From: Minisyncoccota bacterium
Lineage (GTDB): Bacteria > Patescibacteriota > Minisyncoccia > Minisyncoccales > CG1-02-41-26
DNA: 42,519 bases
Assembly (NCBI GenBank): GCA_028718965.1
Contig: JAQUKS010000005.1
Coordinates: forward strand, 1 to 42,519
Direction: 5' to 3'
The position numbers and the translations under genes are program-made. The notes beneath the pieces are model-generated. The model did not search any database, had not been told where the DNA came from, and saw nothing but the letters and a program-made list of their open reading frames with translations. The stretch's first letter is position 1; every line of letters begins with the position of its first letter. Of the stretch, positions 1,614 to 24,392 are shown piece after piece.

Positions 1614-1651
1614 AGCCCTCCCAGCTCTTCTTGTTTAATATTCAAAGCCAA

Positions 1652-2485
1652 ATGTCAAACCAATCAAAATCCATAAACACTCCCAAACATCAAGCCTTCA
1701 CCCTCATCGAACTCCTTGTCGTAATAGCCATCATCGGCATCTTAGCCTCCATTGTAATCGTGTCCTTTCCCACCGCCACCCAGAAAGCCAGGCTGGCCAA
1801 GACTCTCTCCTGGGCCGGAAGCGTGAGCCACTCCCTGGGATCAAGTGCCGTTGGCATCTGGACCTTTGACAACATCTCCGGAACAACCGTCTATGATGAT
1901 TCGGGCAACGACAACAACGGCACGATCTCGGGAGCCACGGTGGTTGACGGCGTGGTGGACAAGGCCCTCTCCTTTGACGGGGTGAATGATTATGTGAGCA
2001 TTCCCGATCCGGTTCTCGGCGCTACTCAAATGACGGTTTGCGCCTGGGCCAAAAAAAATTCTTACACCGGTTATCAAAGCATAGGCTGCGATTATTCGTC
2101 GGTCGCGCGCAACTGGCTTTTGGGTTATGAAAATCCGGACGAAACAGTACACTTTTACGCCGGAGACGGCACTTCGGCCAGCAGTATTTCCATATCCGGA
2201 TTCACGGCTGACACGTGGCATTTCATTTGCGGCATTTTTGACGGGACAGCGGGCAAATTGACCATTTATCTGGACAATACCAAAAATGAAAGAACAGTTA
2301 CTATAAGTAATATAGGGCCGACTCCGGCCTCGTCGGCTCTACGCCGTATTGGTTGCTATGGCTCTTATTACTTTCATGGTTTGATCGATGATTTTCGTAT
2401 TTTCAGGGAGGCTTTTACCCAGGCCCAGGTCCAACAGCTTTACGCTGAAGGAATAATGACCCACCGGAACCTGGCGACAAAATGA
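1652..2485 (+). CDS. Type IV pilin-like/pseudopilin with C-terminal LamG (concanavalin-like) domain
   Basis: Prepilin motif FTLIELLVVIAIIGILASIVIVSF; LamG-like segment AVGIWTFDNISGTTVYDDSGNDNNGTISG...LSFDGVNDYVSIPD...GLIDDFRIF. Start could be 1631. Confidence 0.85.
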   Translation: MSNQSKSINTPKHQAFTLIELLVVIAIIGILASIVIVSFPTATQKARLAKTLSWAGSVSHSLGSSAVGIWTFDNISGTTVYDDSGNDNNGTISGATVVDGVVDKALSFDGVNDYVSIPDPVLGATQMTVCAWAKKNSYTGYQSIGCDYSSVARNWLLGYENPDETVHFYAGDGTSASSISISGFTADTWHFICGIFDGTAGKLTIYLDNTKNERTVTISNIGPTPASSALRRIGCYGSYYFHGLIDDFRIFREAFTQAQVQQLYAEGIMTHRNLATK

Positions 2486-4423: not shown

Positions 4424-5338
4424 ATGCATATGGCGAAAGTTGCCATTAATGGTTTCGGTCGTATCGGTATGCTCACGGCAAGAAGGATGTTGGAAAAACA
4501 TCCTTCTTTGCGGTTAGCGGCGATCAATGATCCTGCCAGCAAAGACCCGGGAATCGGGGTAAAGTTTTTCAGCGAAAAAGACCCCGCAAACTTACCCTGG
4601 AAGGATATGGGCATTGATATCGTTTTGGAATGTTCGGGATTTTTTACCGAAATCGAAGGGGCTAAAAAGCATGTTTCAGCGGGCGCGAAAAAAGTAATAA
4701 TCTCCGCTCCGTCCGATTCCGAGGAAATTCCCGTTTATCTGCTCGGAGTCAACGCGGAAGAATACGATCCCGCCAAAGACGACATAATCTCGATGGGCTC
4801 TTGCACCACTAACGCTGTGGCTCCGGTGGCGAAAATATTGGATGAAAAATTCGGCGTTAAAGCGGGCTTTGTAAATACTGTCCACAGCTACACCAATTCG
4901 CAGAATAAAGTTTTCCCCAACTGGCGGACCGACCCGGCCGCCAAATTGAGCATAATTCCCTCAACAACCGGCGCCACCAAAACAGTGGAAAAATGCCTGC
5001 CGCGCCTGAAAGACAGGCTGAACGGCCTTTCTTTGCGCGTGCCGACCGAAACCGTGTCCATTGTCGAATTCGTTTTTCAGTCAAAAAAGAAAGCGACTGC
5101 CGGGCAGGTGAACGAAATTTTGCGCGAAGCGGCCCAGGCCGACGAACTCAAAGACATCCTGAAATTCGAAAACAAAAAAATGATTTCCAATGACCTGAAA
5201 GGCAGCCCGTATTCGGGCATTGTTGATGCGGCTCTCACGCAAACGTTCGGCAAGCTGATTAAAGTTTTAATCTGGTACGATAACGAATTCGGGTATGCTT
5301 GCCGGTTGAGCGAAATGGCCGAATACATAGCGAAGTAA
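4424..5338 (+). CDS. gap: Glyceraldehyde-3-phosphate dehydrogenase, short form
   Basis: KVAINGFGRIGMLTARR; GSCTTNAVAPVAKIL catalytic Cys; NTVHSYTN; WYDNEFGYACR. Start 4424 or 4430. Confidence 0.92.
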   Translation: MHMAKVAINGFGRIGMLTARRMLEKHPSLRLAAINDPASKDPGIGVKFFSEKDPANLPWKDMGIDIVLECSGFFTEIEGAKKHVSAGAKKVIISAPSDSEEIPVYLLGVNAEEYDPAKDDIISMGSCTTNAVAPVAKILDEKFGVKAGFVNTVHSYTNSQNKVFPNWRTDPAAKLSIIPSTTGATKTVEKCLPRLKDRLNGLSLRVPTETVSIVEFVFQSKKKATAGQVNEILREAAQADELKDILKFENKKMISNDLKGSPYSGIVDAALTQTFGKLIKVLIWYDNEFGYACRLSEMAEYIAK

Positions 5339-5431: not shown

Positions 5432-6052
5432 ATGCTTTTGGGTTTTGAAAAAACAAAAGAACTGCTGGAAAAATACCATATACCCATGGCAGAGAGCTTG
5501 GTCATTGAAAGCGCGGAGCAGGGGATTGAATTCGCCCGCCGGGTTGGTTTTCCGGTGGTTTTGAAACTGATTTCAAACGACATTCTGCATAAAATCGATA
5601 AAGGCCTGGTAAGGCTGGATATCCGAAATGAAAATGATTTGACCGTTGCCCGAAAGGAGCTTAGCTCCTTTCACGTGAAAGGAGCTAAGCTCCTTTCACA
5701 AAAACAGGTTTCAGGTGTAGAGCTTTTTATCGGTATGAAGCGCGACAAGAGTTTCGGCCCGGTGTTAAGCTTCGGCCTGGGCGGAATATTCGTTGAAATC
5801 CTGCGCGATGTTGTCTTCGGTATTTGCCCGGTTGGTAAAGAGCAGGCGCTAAAAATGATAAAAAGCGTCAAAGGTTATGAAATTTTGCGCGGATATAGAG
5901 GGCAGGCGGCCGTTGATATCGAGAAACTGGCGGAAATATTAGCGAATATTTCCAGTCTCGCAATCGGAAACGCGGATGTCGTGGAGATTGACTTCAATCC
6001 GGTGTTCGCTAATGGCAGCGATATTTTGGTGGCAGATGCAAAAATTATTTAA
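5432..6052 (+). CDS. ADP-forming acyl-CoA synthetase beta subunit (ATP-grasp_5)
   Basis: ARRVGFPVVLKLISNDILHKIDKGLVRLDI; FGPVLSFGLGGIFVEILRDVVFGICPV; VVEIDFNPVF. Confidence 0.88.
   Translation: MLLGFEKTKELLEKYHIPMAESLVIESAEQGIEFARRVGFPVVLKLISNDILHKIDKGLVRLDIRNENDLTVARKELSSFHVKGAKLLSQKQVSGVELFIGMKRDKSFGPVLSFGLGGIFVEILRDVVFGICPVGKEQALKMIKSVKGYEILRGYRGQAAVDIEKLAEILANISSLAIGNADVVEIDFNPVFANGSDILVADAKII
5652..5697. repeat. Perfect 46-bp palindrome inside a CDS
   Basis: GAAAGGAGCTTAGCTCCTTTCACGTGAAAGGAGCTAAGCTCCTTTC equals its own reverse complement; each arm is itself near-palindromic. Confidence 0.97.
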
Positions 6053-7400
6053 TCCAAAATCAATTGTTTTGATAGGCGCTACCGGCCGGCAAGGTTCGGT
6101 CGGTTTGGGTATTGCGAAAAATTTATTGGCAGGAGCGGGAAAGCGAAGAAAGATATTTTTCGTCAATCCTAACAGCGCGAAAGTTCTAAACCGGAAAACG
6201 TTCGTTTCAATCGGTGACATAAAAGAAAAAATCGACCTGGCGATTATCGCGGTGCCATCGCGCTTCGTGGAGGGCGTGGGGCAGGAGTGCTGCTTGGCGG
6301 GCGTGGGTGCGGCGGTCATAATTTCTTCGGGGTTCGCCGAAACAGGCGTCGAAGGCGAGAAAGCGCAGCAAGCAATCAGCGAAATGTTCGCGCGAAACAA
6401 CATTCCGCTGGTCGGGCCGAATTGCCTCGGGGTCATAAACCCATCAAAGGGGCTTAACGCCTCGTTCGCTCCCGAAACGCCCCAAAAGGGAAATATCGCT
6501 TTTTTGTCGCAGTCGGGCGCCCTGGTTGATTCGATAATCGACAAATCGCTTTCGGAAAACTTCGGATTTTCTTTGATGGTGTCTTATGGCAACGAAGCGG
6601 GCCTTTCGCTAAACGATTTTCTGAAAATCGCCGATGAAGATAAAAATACCGAAGTAATCGTTGTTTACCTGGAAGAAATAAAAAACGGCCGGGAATTTAT
6701 GAAAATCGCTTCGGGAATTACCGGGCGGAAACCGATAGTTATTTTAAAAGGCGGCAAAACCCGGGAAGGCAAAAAAGCGGTTCAAAGCCATACCGCTTCG
6801 CTGGCGGGCGATGAAAAAATCTATTCAGCGGCTTTCGCGCAAGCGGGCATTGTCGAAGCTGAAACCATCGAGGATTTGTTTCTAATTGCCAGGACTCTGT
6901 CGGTTTATCCGAAAGCGGCCGGGCCATGGGCTGTTTTAACCAACGGAGGAGCTGTCGGCGTCTTGACGGCCGACTGGTGCTCGAAGCTGGGCGTGGGACT
7001 GGCCGAAATACCGCAGGCGGTTTTCGATGAAATCGCAAAAAGCGAAAAAGTAAACGCGGCTTTCTCGAGAAATAATCCTTTGGACATTATCGGGGATGCT
7101 TCAAGTCAGGGGTACGAAGCTGCTTTATGGAGCCTGCTGGGACAAAAAGAAATTTCCGGAGTTATTTTCTGTCAGACATTGCAGGCAATGACCGACCCGT
7201 TTCAAAACGCCGAAATCATCATCGAGGCGCGGAAGCGATTTCCCGAAAAGCCGGTTTTACCGTTGTTTTTGGGCGGAAAAACAACAAAAAAGGGGAGTGA
7301 TGCTCTTGTTAAAAAAGGACTTTTCTGCTTTAACGAGCCACGCGACGCGGCTCTGGCGGCCCGCTCTTTACAGGGCGCCGATATTCCCGTAAATTATTAA
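6036..7400 (+). CDS. ADP-forming acyl-CoA synthetase alpha subunit (CoA-binding / succinyl-CoA ligase-like)
   Basis: MQKLFNPKSIVLIGATGRQGSVGLGIAKNLL; GPNCLGVINPSKGLNASFAPETPQKGNIAFLSQSGALVDSIID; KGGKTREGKKAVQSHTASLAG. Start overlaps the beta-subunit gene. Confidence 0.88.
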   Translation: MQKLFNPKSIVLIGATGRQGSVGLGIAKNLLAGAGKRRKIFFVNPNSAKVLNRKTFVSIGDIKEKIDLAIIAVPSRFVEGVGQECCLAGVGAAVIISSGFAETGVEGEKAQQAISEMFARNNIPLVGPNCLGVINPSKGLNASFAPETPQKGNIAFLSQSGALVDSIIDKSLSENFGFSLMVSYGNEAGLSLNDFLKIADEDKNTEVIVVYLEEIKNGREFMKIASGITGRKPIVILKGGKTREGKKAVQSHTASLAGDEKIYSAAFAQAGIVEAETIEDLFLIARTLSVYPKAAGPWAVLTNGGAVGVLTADWCSKLGVGLAEIPQAVFDEIAKSEKVNAAFSRNNPLDIIGDASSQGYEAALWSLLGQKEISGVIFCQTLQAMTDPFQNAEIIIEARKRFPEKPVLPLFLGGKTTKKGSDALVKKGLFCFNEPRDAALAARSLQGADIPVNY

Positions 7401-16968: not shown

Positions 16969-18016
16969 AAACATCATTAAAATTCTTACTCTCTGCTCCT
17001 TGTCAGCTTTTTTAGCTGTTTCGTGGACCCCGCTCCTTACGCACTTCCTATATAAATACAAGCTTTGGCGCAAGTCAGCCAGAATTAAAGCGATTGACGG
17101 AGGTCCGGCCACTGTTTTTAACCAGCTTCATAAAGACAAAGAAGTATCAACTCCGCGAATGGGAGGGCTTTTAATATGGATAACCACTGCATTCGTAATT
17201 TTTCTTTTTGCCGGGCTTCATAAAATATTTCCAAATCAGTATTGGATCGGCAAACTTGATTTTCTTTCACGCAGCCAAACCTGGCTGCCGTTGGGCATCT
17301 TGATCGCGGGCTCGCTTTTGGGCCTGGGGGACGATATTCTTACAGTCATTGAAAAGGGTAAATATGTCGGAGGGGGCATTCGTTTCACCCGACGTTTCGC
17401 GGTTGTTCTGCTCATCGGCCTGATTGGCGGATTTTGGTTTTATTTCAAACTGGGATGGCACACCATTCACATCCCGGGTAACGGCGACATTGAAATCGGG
17501 CTGCTGTATTTACCCCTGTTCGTGGTAACGGTTTTGGCATGCTGGGCCGGAGGCGTTATCGACGGTCTGGACGGCCTGGCTGGGGGAATATTCAGCATTA
17601 TGTTCGGAGCTTTTTCCATCATCGCTTATGGCAACACTCAATACGATCTGGCAGCCTTATGCGCTGTAATAGCGGGCTCTACAATGGCTTTTCTATGGTT
17701 CAACATACCCCCGGCCCGCTTTTATATGTCAGAAACAGGCTCAATCGGTCTTACCGCTGTCCTGGCGGTGGTTGCCTTTCTTACCGACTCGCTGCTGGTT
17801 TTGCCGATAATCGCCGGGCTTCTGGTGGTGGAAGTAGGCTCGATAATTATTCAGCTTTTTTCCAAAAGATTTCTTCATAAAAAAATTTTCCTTTGCACGC
17901 CCATTCATCATCACTTGGAAGCCAAAGGCTGGAGCAGAGAAAAAATCACCATGCGCTTCTGGCTGATAAATTTGGTTTTGGCCATAATCGGCGTGGCCAT
18001 AAGACTGCTTGGATAA
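16958..18016 (+). CDS. mraY: Phospho-N-acetylmuramoyl-pentapeptide-transferase
   Basis: STPRMGGLLIW; VIDGLDGLAGG; FYMSETGSIGLTA; HHHLEAKGWSREKITMRFW. Confidence 0.93.
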   Translation: MASENIIKILTLCSLSAFLAVSWTPLLTHFLYKYKLWRKSARIKAIDGGPATVFNQLHKDKEVSTPRMGGLLIWITTAFVIFLFAGLHKIFPNQYWIGKLDFLSRSQTWLPLGILIAGSLLGLGDDILTVIEKGKYVGGGIRFTRRFAVVLLIGLIGGFWFYFKLGWHTIHIPGNGDIEIGLLYLPLFVVTVLACWAGGVIDGLDGLAGGIFSIMFGAFSIIAYGNTQYDLAALCAVIAGSTMAFLWFNIPPARFYMSETGSIGLTAVLAVVAFLTDSLLVLPIIAGLLVVEVGSIIIQLFSKRFLHKKIFLCTPIHHHLEAKGWSREKITMRFWLINLVLAIIGVAIRLLG

Positions 18017-19403
18017 GCAAAACATAAAAATGAAAAATGAAAGCCCACAATTGAAAATTAAAAAAAACCTGAAAAATGAAAAAATATTGATTTTAGGGTT
18101 CGGCAAAGAGGGGACTGACAGCTATGCGGCTTTGCGGAAATTATTTCCAGACAAAGTTTTGGGAATCGCCGATAAAAAAGATTTGGACGATTTTGACGAA
18201 AGAACACGGGCAGTTTTGACAAAGGATAAAAATTTAAAAAAACATTTCGGCCGAAATTACTTGGCCCAAGCAGGGGAGTATGATTTGATTATCAAAACCC
18301 CCGGAATTTCTTCCGCGGAGCTCGGCAAGCTGAAAGCAAAAAGGGCTGGCGCTCCGCGCATAACTTCGCAAACCGAAATATTTTTTGATAATTTTCCGGG
18401 TTTGATTGTCGGGGTAACCGGCACCAAGGGCAAGGGCACTACCTCAAGCCTGGTTTACTCGATTTTAAAAAAAGCCGGATTAGAAGTTTATTTGGGAGGT
18501 AATATCGGCAGGCCGGTTTTTCAGTATCTTCTCAAAAGCAAACCAAGCCATATTTTCGTTTACGAACTCTCAGACCACCAGCTGCAAAATCTGAAAAAAT
18601 CACCGCAAATCGCCGTGTTTCTGAACATCTTTCTTGACCATCAGGATTATTACAGGAATTTTCAGGAATACCAGGCTGCCAAAGCCAATATAGCCCTCCA
18701 TCAGACGAAAAACGACATTTTGGTTTATAACTCCGACGATCCTTTGGTTAAAAAAATCGCTCAAACTGATAAAGCGCAAAAAATCGTTTTTTCTTTAGCG
18801 TCGCCCCTTTCTTGCTTTGAAAAAACTTTAAAAAAACATTATACGCTCAAAGGCGATTTCAATTTTCTTAATTTAAGAGCTGCTGTAAGGGTTGCCGAAC
18901 TGTTCGGTGTTTCTGAAAAAGCTATTACGGAAACGATCAAGGTCTTTAAAGGCTTGCCGCACCGCCTGGAGTTTGCCGGCAAATATAAGGGAATAGAATT
19001 TTACGATAATTCAATGGCGACGATTCCCGAAACGACGATTTTGGACATTAGAACATTCAACGGAAAACCAATTTCTCTTGTCGCAGGAGGATCGGAAAAG
19101 GGGAGTGAATACGCCAGCCTGGCCCGGGAAATTTCCAAATCATCGGTTTTGAATTTGATTGTTCTGGGGCAGGGGACCGGTCAAAAAATAGAAGCATCCC
19201 TGAAACCGCTAAGGAGTCCGCGAATATTTCAAACAAATTCGATGAAGGAGGCGGTTGAAATTTGCTATAAAAAAACGGCAAAAAACGGCGTATGTTTACT
19301 TTCGCCGGCTTCCGCCAGTTTCAATATGTTTAAGGATTACCAGGACAGGGGAGAACAGTTTAAAAAATGGATAAAATTTTATGCCCGCAAAAAAATACCT
19401 TAA
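18009..19403 (+). CDS. murD: UDP-N-acetylmuramoylalanine--D-glutamate ligase
   Basis: VGVTGTKGKGTTSSLVYSIL; ELSDHQLQN; NIFLDHQDYY; GLPHRLEFAGKYKGIEFYDNSMATIPE. Confidence 0.92.
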   Translation: MDKQNIKMKNESPQLKIKKNLKNEKILILGFGKEGTDSYAALRKLFPDKVLGIADKKDLDDFDERTRAVLTKDKNLKKHFGRNYLAQAGEYDLIIKTPGISSAELGKLKAKRAGAPRITSQTEIFFDNFPGLIVGVTGTKGKGTTSSLVYSILKKAGLEVYLGGNIGRPVFQYLLKSKPSHIFVYELSDHQLQNLKKSPQIAVFLNIFLDHQDYYRNFQEYQAAKANIALHQTKNDILVYNSDDPLVKKIAQTDKAQKIVFSLASPLSCFEKTLKKHYTLKGDFNFLNLRAAVRVAELFGVSEKAITETIKVFKGLPHRLEFAGKYKGIEFYDNSMATIPETTILDIRTFNGKPISLVAGGSEKGSEYASLAREISKSSVLNLIVLGQGTGQKIEASLKPLRSPRIFQTNSMKEAVEICYKKTAKNGVCLLSPASASFNMFKDYQDRGEQFKKWIKFYARKKIP

Positions 19404-23979: not shown

Positions 23980-24392
23980 ACTAGTGAATGTGTTGAAATT
24001 GTGGTCGCGAAGCAGCATGTAGCTGCCAACCATCCGGTTTTCGTTAAAACAATGGCATCCACCAGTACCAAGAAGACTATTCCCACTACCAGTGGAATCG
24101 AAATCAATACGATCTTTGTCGGCTTTGACAGGCCATACCTGTCATCCATATATTGGACTATGGACTTGAGGATTCGGCCTATCATGGCTCCGGCCAGAAT
24201 AGCCAACAAGCCGAAAAAGGAATATTCTACTACCTTAGCTATTGCCAATAGCCAAGGTAGTAGAATCCCTATCAGCCATTTTGAAATGACTAATAGGATT
24301 CTTGCCAGGATATACCCGGCAACACCGGCTGCTACTACGCAGCCGACAACGATAATTATAATCCACCCAATTATTTTTAGAAAAGTATCCAC
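23967..24392 (-). CDS. Small multi-TM membrane protein A, unknown function (GTG start)
   Basis: (M)DTFLKIIGWIIIIVVGCVVAAGVAGYILARILL...; SD AAAAGGAGGTGAT upstream of the GTG. Confidence 0.72.
   Translation of the reverse strand: MDTFLKIIGWIIIIVVGCVVAAGVAGYILARILLVISKWLIGILLPWLLAIAKVVEYSFFGLLAILAGAMIGRILKSIVQYMDDRYGLSKPTKIVLISIPLVVGIVFLVLVDAIVLTKTGWLAATCCFATTISTHSLVWKW

Follow-up and report, generated by a model that had tools for sequence, protein, structure and literature searches.

The window, by which we mean the whole 42,519-nt stretch analyzed, is contig C5 of an 865-kb draft genome (G000; 95.9% complete). A palindrome, read from the sequence as GAAAGGAGCTTAGCTCCTTTC-ACGT-GAAAGGAGCTAAGCTCCTTTC, lies in the gene for the beta subunit of an ADP-forming acyl-CoA synthetase (acs-beta; Table 1). 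Its arms (5652–5674 and 5675–5697) are 100% complementary with no gap between them. It consists of two 21-nt imperfect hairpin units in inverted orientation, so that the perfect 46-bp palindrome and the hairpin in each half described by the first-pass annotation were both recovered.

Table 1. Features at and around the double palindrome in the window
Feature	Coordinates	Strand	Basis
gap (GAPDH) gene, empty-site example, element-free as REAAQADELKDILKFENKKM	4424..5338	+	homolog comparison, Pfam
Host gene, ADP-forming acyl-CoA synthetase beta subunit (ATP-grasp_5)	5432..6052	+	Pfam, PDB 4xyl relative, AF2, homolog alignment
Double palindromic element, REPIN-like, two inverted 21-nt hairpin units	5652..5697	+	sequence, shuffles, folding
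Unit 1, GAAAGGAGCTTAGCTCCTTTC, centre T	5652..5672	+	sequence, pattern search
Spacer ACGT, 4 nt, itself palindromic	5673..5676	+	sequence
Unit 2, GAAAGGAGCTAAGCTCCTTTC, reverse complement of unit 1	5677..5697	+	sequence, pattern search
Alpha subunit gene (Succ_CoA_lig, CoA_binding_2), neighbour, overlaps beta, element-free	6035..7400	+	sequence, Pfam; start codon from sequence

The unit pattern, with up to three mismatches allowed, occurred twice in the window versus 0.00 times in shuffles. The single strand was predicted to fold into a full-length hairpin (-23.2 kcal/mol, z = -10.4), and the element thus has the inverted doublet of palindromic units forming one hairpin that is found in REPs and REPINs. 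Another imperfect inverted repeat in the window (24224–24266; 21-nt arms, 1-nt gap) is unrelated in sequence to this family. A search of viral contigs with the exact double pattern gave no match.

The acs-beta element and its homologs

The host ORF encodes 206 aa and matches Pfam ATP-grasp_5 with 194 bits, with PDB 4xyl as a relative. The element is read in frame and translates as KELSSFHVKGAKLLS, in agreement with the first-pass annotation. In the AF2 model (pLDDT 92), the element residues (about 74–89) form the end of helix 67–78, a loop and the start of strand 86–91. By this model, the element now encodes a part of the acs-beta fold.

A double palindrome was present at the same codon of acs-beta in G002 and G003, which belong to the genus of the window, and in G022 and G023, which belong to another genus of the same family. 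The left border was at an identical codon in all five genomes. The palindrome sequence was different in each of them, and the arms and units were still largely complementary. Over seven copies, 98% of the cells in the alignment were paired, and 11 of the 21 pairs had changed on both sides; none of 500 shuffles was as good, for a structure that had been chosen from those same sequences. In the alignment, the acs-beta genes of more distant members of the family lacked the element. Named genome contigs, scanned with the acs protein as query, yielded no relative.

The first-pass annotation had named, as the outcome contradicting its reading, homologs that encode the same residues with non-palindromic DNA. 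The closest homologs were instead found to encode other residues with other palindromes at the same site. It had also raised the possibility of an assembly artefact. The genome is indeed a draft, but since in-frame palindromes of different sequence stand at this codon in independent genomes, an artefact is very unlikely.

Between the conserved flanking motifs, we counted 34–38 residues in the alignment of element-free homologs, 35 in the window and in G003, 41 in G023, 42 in G002, and 53 in G022. The net change in length at the site thus ranged from none to about 15 residues (in G022). Since the acs-beta of the window is not longer than its element-free homologs, the element replaces the linker in the genus of the window. 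A simple net insertion of 15 residues, as suggested in the first-pass annotation, was rejected for the window gene on this count.

A dispersed family within coding sequences

A pattern search of G000 located the family at a few more places, while a reversed control pattern gave none. A second double lies in frame in the ThiI gene (contig C34), and a diverged one at the end of a glycosyltransferase-like ORF (C29). A degenerate single unit lies in an ObgE-like ORF (C18); the latter two names were read from the translations. The related palindrome AAAGTGGCCGAGCCACTTT is present in and around a Y1_Tnp gene on C3, at three places in all, and C40 has one further copy. At the gap site, which is empty in the window, G023 has a double element, and G003 and G002 each have a single unit. 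The window murD (18009–19403) has divergent residues SAELGKLKAKRAGAP and ASLKPLRSPRIF where the murD of relatives carries elements; these stretches may be eroded elements.

A covariance model built from the seven copies was used to search 24 genomes of the family. Matches were found in 13, and they were numerous in ten of these. A stricter search of an order-wide sample of 196 genomes gave matches in 16, of which ten belong to other families. The first-pass annotation knew of no such element in this kind of genome and had proposed searching the genome and its relatives for the units; that search has now supplied further copies in G000 and related elements in these genomes. Four other patescibacterial genomes each contain 2 to 21 copies of a CTTGGGA-type palindrome that is also present at their transposase genes. 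In one of the four, two doubles with the 21+4+21 layout are read in frame within ORFs 290 and 501 aa long, and many single copies lie outside long ORFs. Single palindromes in G006, whose upstream sequences are similar, lie on either side of a short helix-turn-helix-like ORF (L084 1560–1590 and 2226–2256) and look like terminators.

For the analysis of location, 46 doubles were extracted from loci in ten genomes. All but one lay in frame inside ORFs of at least 127 aa (binomial P 0.002); random positions in the same loci passed this test at 83%, and the enrichment in genes is therefore modest. Genes are thus not avoided, unlike by classical REPs, and the mainly extragenic location of REPs and REPINs was not seen. 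On the other hand, the family shares with RPEs an in-frame palindromic repeat in ORFs that is present or absent between homologs. The lone exception lies immediately upstream of a transposase gene (G002, C20). The hosts, where identified, are mostly housekeeping genes. By Pfam they include enolase, GAPDH (gap), UvrB, UvrC, an Mfd-type helicase (mfd), NAD-dependent DNA ligase (ligA), ThiI (thiI), two Mur ligases (including murD), a class I tRNA synthetase, TrmD (trmD), TsaD, a tetrapyrrole-methylase-type methyltransferase, rRNA adenine dimethylase, IPP transferase and a phosphoglucomutase-type enzyme, among others. Reading frames, strands and positions in the gene varied. In the six positions outside the doubles, no conserved base or target motif was found, nor was a GTAG/GTGG foot.

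These locations bear on whether the palindrome is an mRNA regulatory hairpin, a terminator or a competence uptake-type signal. The strong fold, the intergenic single units of G006 in terminator-like contexts and the DNA-repair genes among the hosts would agree with such a role. The doubles, however, sit within ORFs at varied positions, by which the terminator reading was rejected, and an Rfam search gave only sub-threshold microRNA matches, to a generic hairpin. Known uptake signals have far more copies per genome than the doubles extracted here, which numbered at most about a dozen in any one. We regard a signal of this kind as very improbable.

Most copies have an identical core in another gene of the same genome. 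The core distance averaged 2.53 mismatches within genomes versus 3.68 between genomes (0 of 500 permutations, in a test that treats copies as independent and ignores relatedness). There were exceptions: some orthologous copies have a common core, and G003, G021 and G023 contain several variants. Identical cores in unrelated genes of one genome would not be expected if the arms were kept palindromic only by template switching during replication or by selection on an RNA hairpin, with no mobile element needed today. The complementary arms and compensatory changes among the acs copies fit that explanation, as do the coding palindromes of nematomorphs, for whose concerted arms template switching has been proposed (PMC6649704). 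It leaves unexplained the similar palindromes around transposase genes, as well as the variation in frame, strand and gene position, and we consider it improbable.

The sites are also shared. In 45 of 59 pairs of homologous element-bearing ORFs from different genomes, the element centres were within 12 aa of each other (17 site clusters); random placement would give about 6%, the pairs not being independent. The remaining pairs mostly have different sites within the same genes. Shared sites may alternatively be hotspots, at which the transposase of each lineage independently targets the same permissive loops. This would be consistent with the sites being often variable loops, and with orthologous copies differing in sequence, and some also in unit orientation and reading frame. 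Against it stand the excess of shared positions over random placement, the identical left border in acs and the lack of a flanking target motif at the element borders, and we find independent insertion unlikely. From comparison of these sequences, the shared sites with genome-typical sequence are apparently old insertions that were homogenized within genomes.

Y1 transposase genes flanked by related palindromes

In G002, a Y1_Tnp gene has the exact dominant dispersed variant as a doublet upstream; one further copy is in frame inside the ORF, and another follows downstream. Related units flank homologous genes in G021 and G014 and a Y1_Tnp gene in G000, and a homologous gene in G003 is surrounded by a different palindrome. 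A Y1_Tnp gene was found in nine of the ten genomes with many elements versus three of the other 14 (Fisher P 0.003, relatedness being ignored); G001, although rich in elements, gave no Y1_Tnp match. The exact variant of the window was not found beside a transposase in the G000 draft (95.9% complete). The local RAYT-like gene (C3:44592) is flanked by the related but different unit AAAGTGGCCGAGCCACTTT.

The C3 gene (locus L017, 1–2836) adjoins a shortened copy of a pilin-like gene of the window (1631–2485), of which 204 bp are identical to 1693–1896 of the window. C40 (L010) contains another fragment of this pilin-like gene and the lone copy of the AAAGTGGCCGAGCCACTTT palindrome.

The survey was extended to 102 transposase loci, mostly from other Patescibacteria, with a shared 9-mer scored as a match. 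A matching palindrome was present on both flanks in 52 loci and inside the ORF in 42. Internal palindromes matched the flanks of their own locus in 48 of 73 cases, versus 1.4 expected from other loci. The in-ORF palindromes of patescibacterial Y1 transposase genes, often in frame, recur at two positions, query residues about 57–82 and 169–195 (e.g. L169, L175 and L180). Another Y1 transposase gene (L126; G002, C12) has palindromes of the GGGGTCAGACCCC type at its ends, and its ORF contains a 58-bp palindrome.

The proteins exceeded the PF01797 cut-off, and the HUH and YxxxN residues (H97, H99, Y157 and N161) were invariant in the alignment. They scored 15.9 and 22.5 bits with the RAYT equivalog NF047646 of NCBIfam, under its cut-off of 80 bits, and we therefore call them RAYT-like and distant. 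A profile of the transposase gave no match to solved structures.

Interpretation and comparison with known systems

We interpreted the element as a short, non-autonomous, mobile REPIN-like doublet that is old in acs, tends to be kept alike within genomes, perhaps by overwriting, and is akin to elements that accompany RAYT-like HUH/Y1 transposases. As a whole this account is probable, and the membership of the element in a family of transposase-linked palindromes is more secure still. Much of the first-pass suggestion of a mobile palindrome in genes stands: copies are dispersed and read in frame in many genes, there are element-free homologs, and relatives have copies next to a RAYT-like transposase. 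Cleavage, mobility by transposition and conversion are what we infer; we saw no recent event of either transposition or conversion.

An ancestor of the element would have entered acs-beta before the split of genera g1 and g16, and would have survived because it stayed in frame, now forming part of the protein fold. Copies within one genome would tend to stay alike while the sites persist, so that orthologous sites come to hold different, genome-typical palindromes. The mechanism we favour is that the current variant would repeatedly overwrite resident copies, either by transposase nicking of the hairpin and subsequent conversion from a second copy, or by exact re-insertion. That overwriting explains the sequence pattern is close to an even call. 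More tentatively, the HUH enzyme could be a homing or overwriting system that converts the resident palindromes, in essential genes and in its own gene, to the current palindrome, a proposal toward which we remain somewhat sceptical. If it is true, housekeeping peptide segments are rewritten in step with the recognition hairpin of a transposase.

Like the REPINs and BIMEs that accompany RAYTs in Pseudomonas and Escherichia, the element is an inverted doublet of short imperfect palindromes that forms a long hairpin and has a species-specific sequence, and in relatives such units flank an HUH/Y1 transposase gene. Classical REPs are mostly extragenic (in P. fluorescens SBW25, only 14 of 1,067 occurrences of 16-mers overlap a gene; PMC3116915) and have a GTAG/GTGG tag and guide (PMC6006769), whereas this family is intragenic, has low copy numbers, and showed no such tag. 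Since the extragenic location and GTAG tag are missing, we do not claim it as a REP in the strict sense. The best reading is a variant of the REPIN/RAYT kind with RPE-like behaviour.

RPEs are likewise described as palindromic repeats in frame in unrelated protein genes. They were first reported at about 150 bp (reviewed in PMC10969869), and RPE-4 and RPE-6 are of the short CGTC type (PMC3733652). CGTC repeats are reported there without association with transposase genes, unlike the related units here. The same source describes intragenic REP dimers that encode 20–30 residues, repair genes included, and two Xanthomonas species whose recB genes carry different REPs at about one site. It also describes TIRtrons and TIRYTs, Y1 transposases with inverted repeats on their flanks, some self-complementary, the GGGGWSAS motif being common to only some of these repeats. 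The present family resembles the intragenic GTAG/CGTC REPs in its in-ORF dimers, repair-gene hosts and different repeats at one site, and TIRtrons/TIRYTs in its Y1 transposases flanked by inverted repeats. It differs from both in that its units lacked the GTAG tag and the GGGGWSAS motif when these were sought, that many coding sites are common across genera, and that matching palindromes lie inside the transposase ORF.

Nematomorph mitochondria also have perfect palindromes in coding sequence, some with shared midpoints and with arms that evolve together; in contrast to our family, the available text of PMC6649704 reports neither a dispersed identical family nor a transposase. The family is not described in the available portions of PMC3733652, PMC3116915, PMC6006769, PMC10969869 and PMC6649704, and a literature search on RAYTs in the Candidate Phyla Radiation/Patescibacteria returned nothing relevant.

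Palindromic elements lying in frame in Rickettsia genes have been on record since 2000, with no transposase named for them in the sources at hand. For the comparable family here there is a candidate transposase, which has related palindromes both beside and within its ORF. Many coding sites are shared, and empty sites are available for comparison, by which movement, in-frame persistence and in-place overwriting become directly testable. In a reduced genome, probable mobile DNA appears to have become part of a conserved protein fold.
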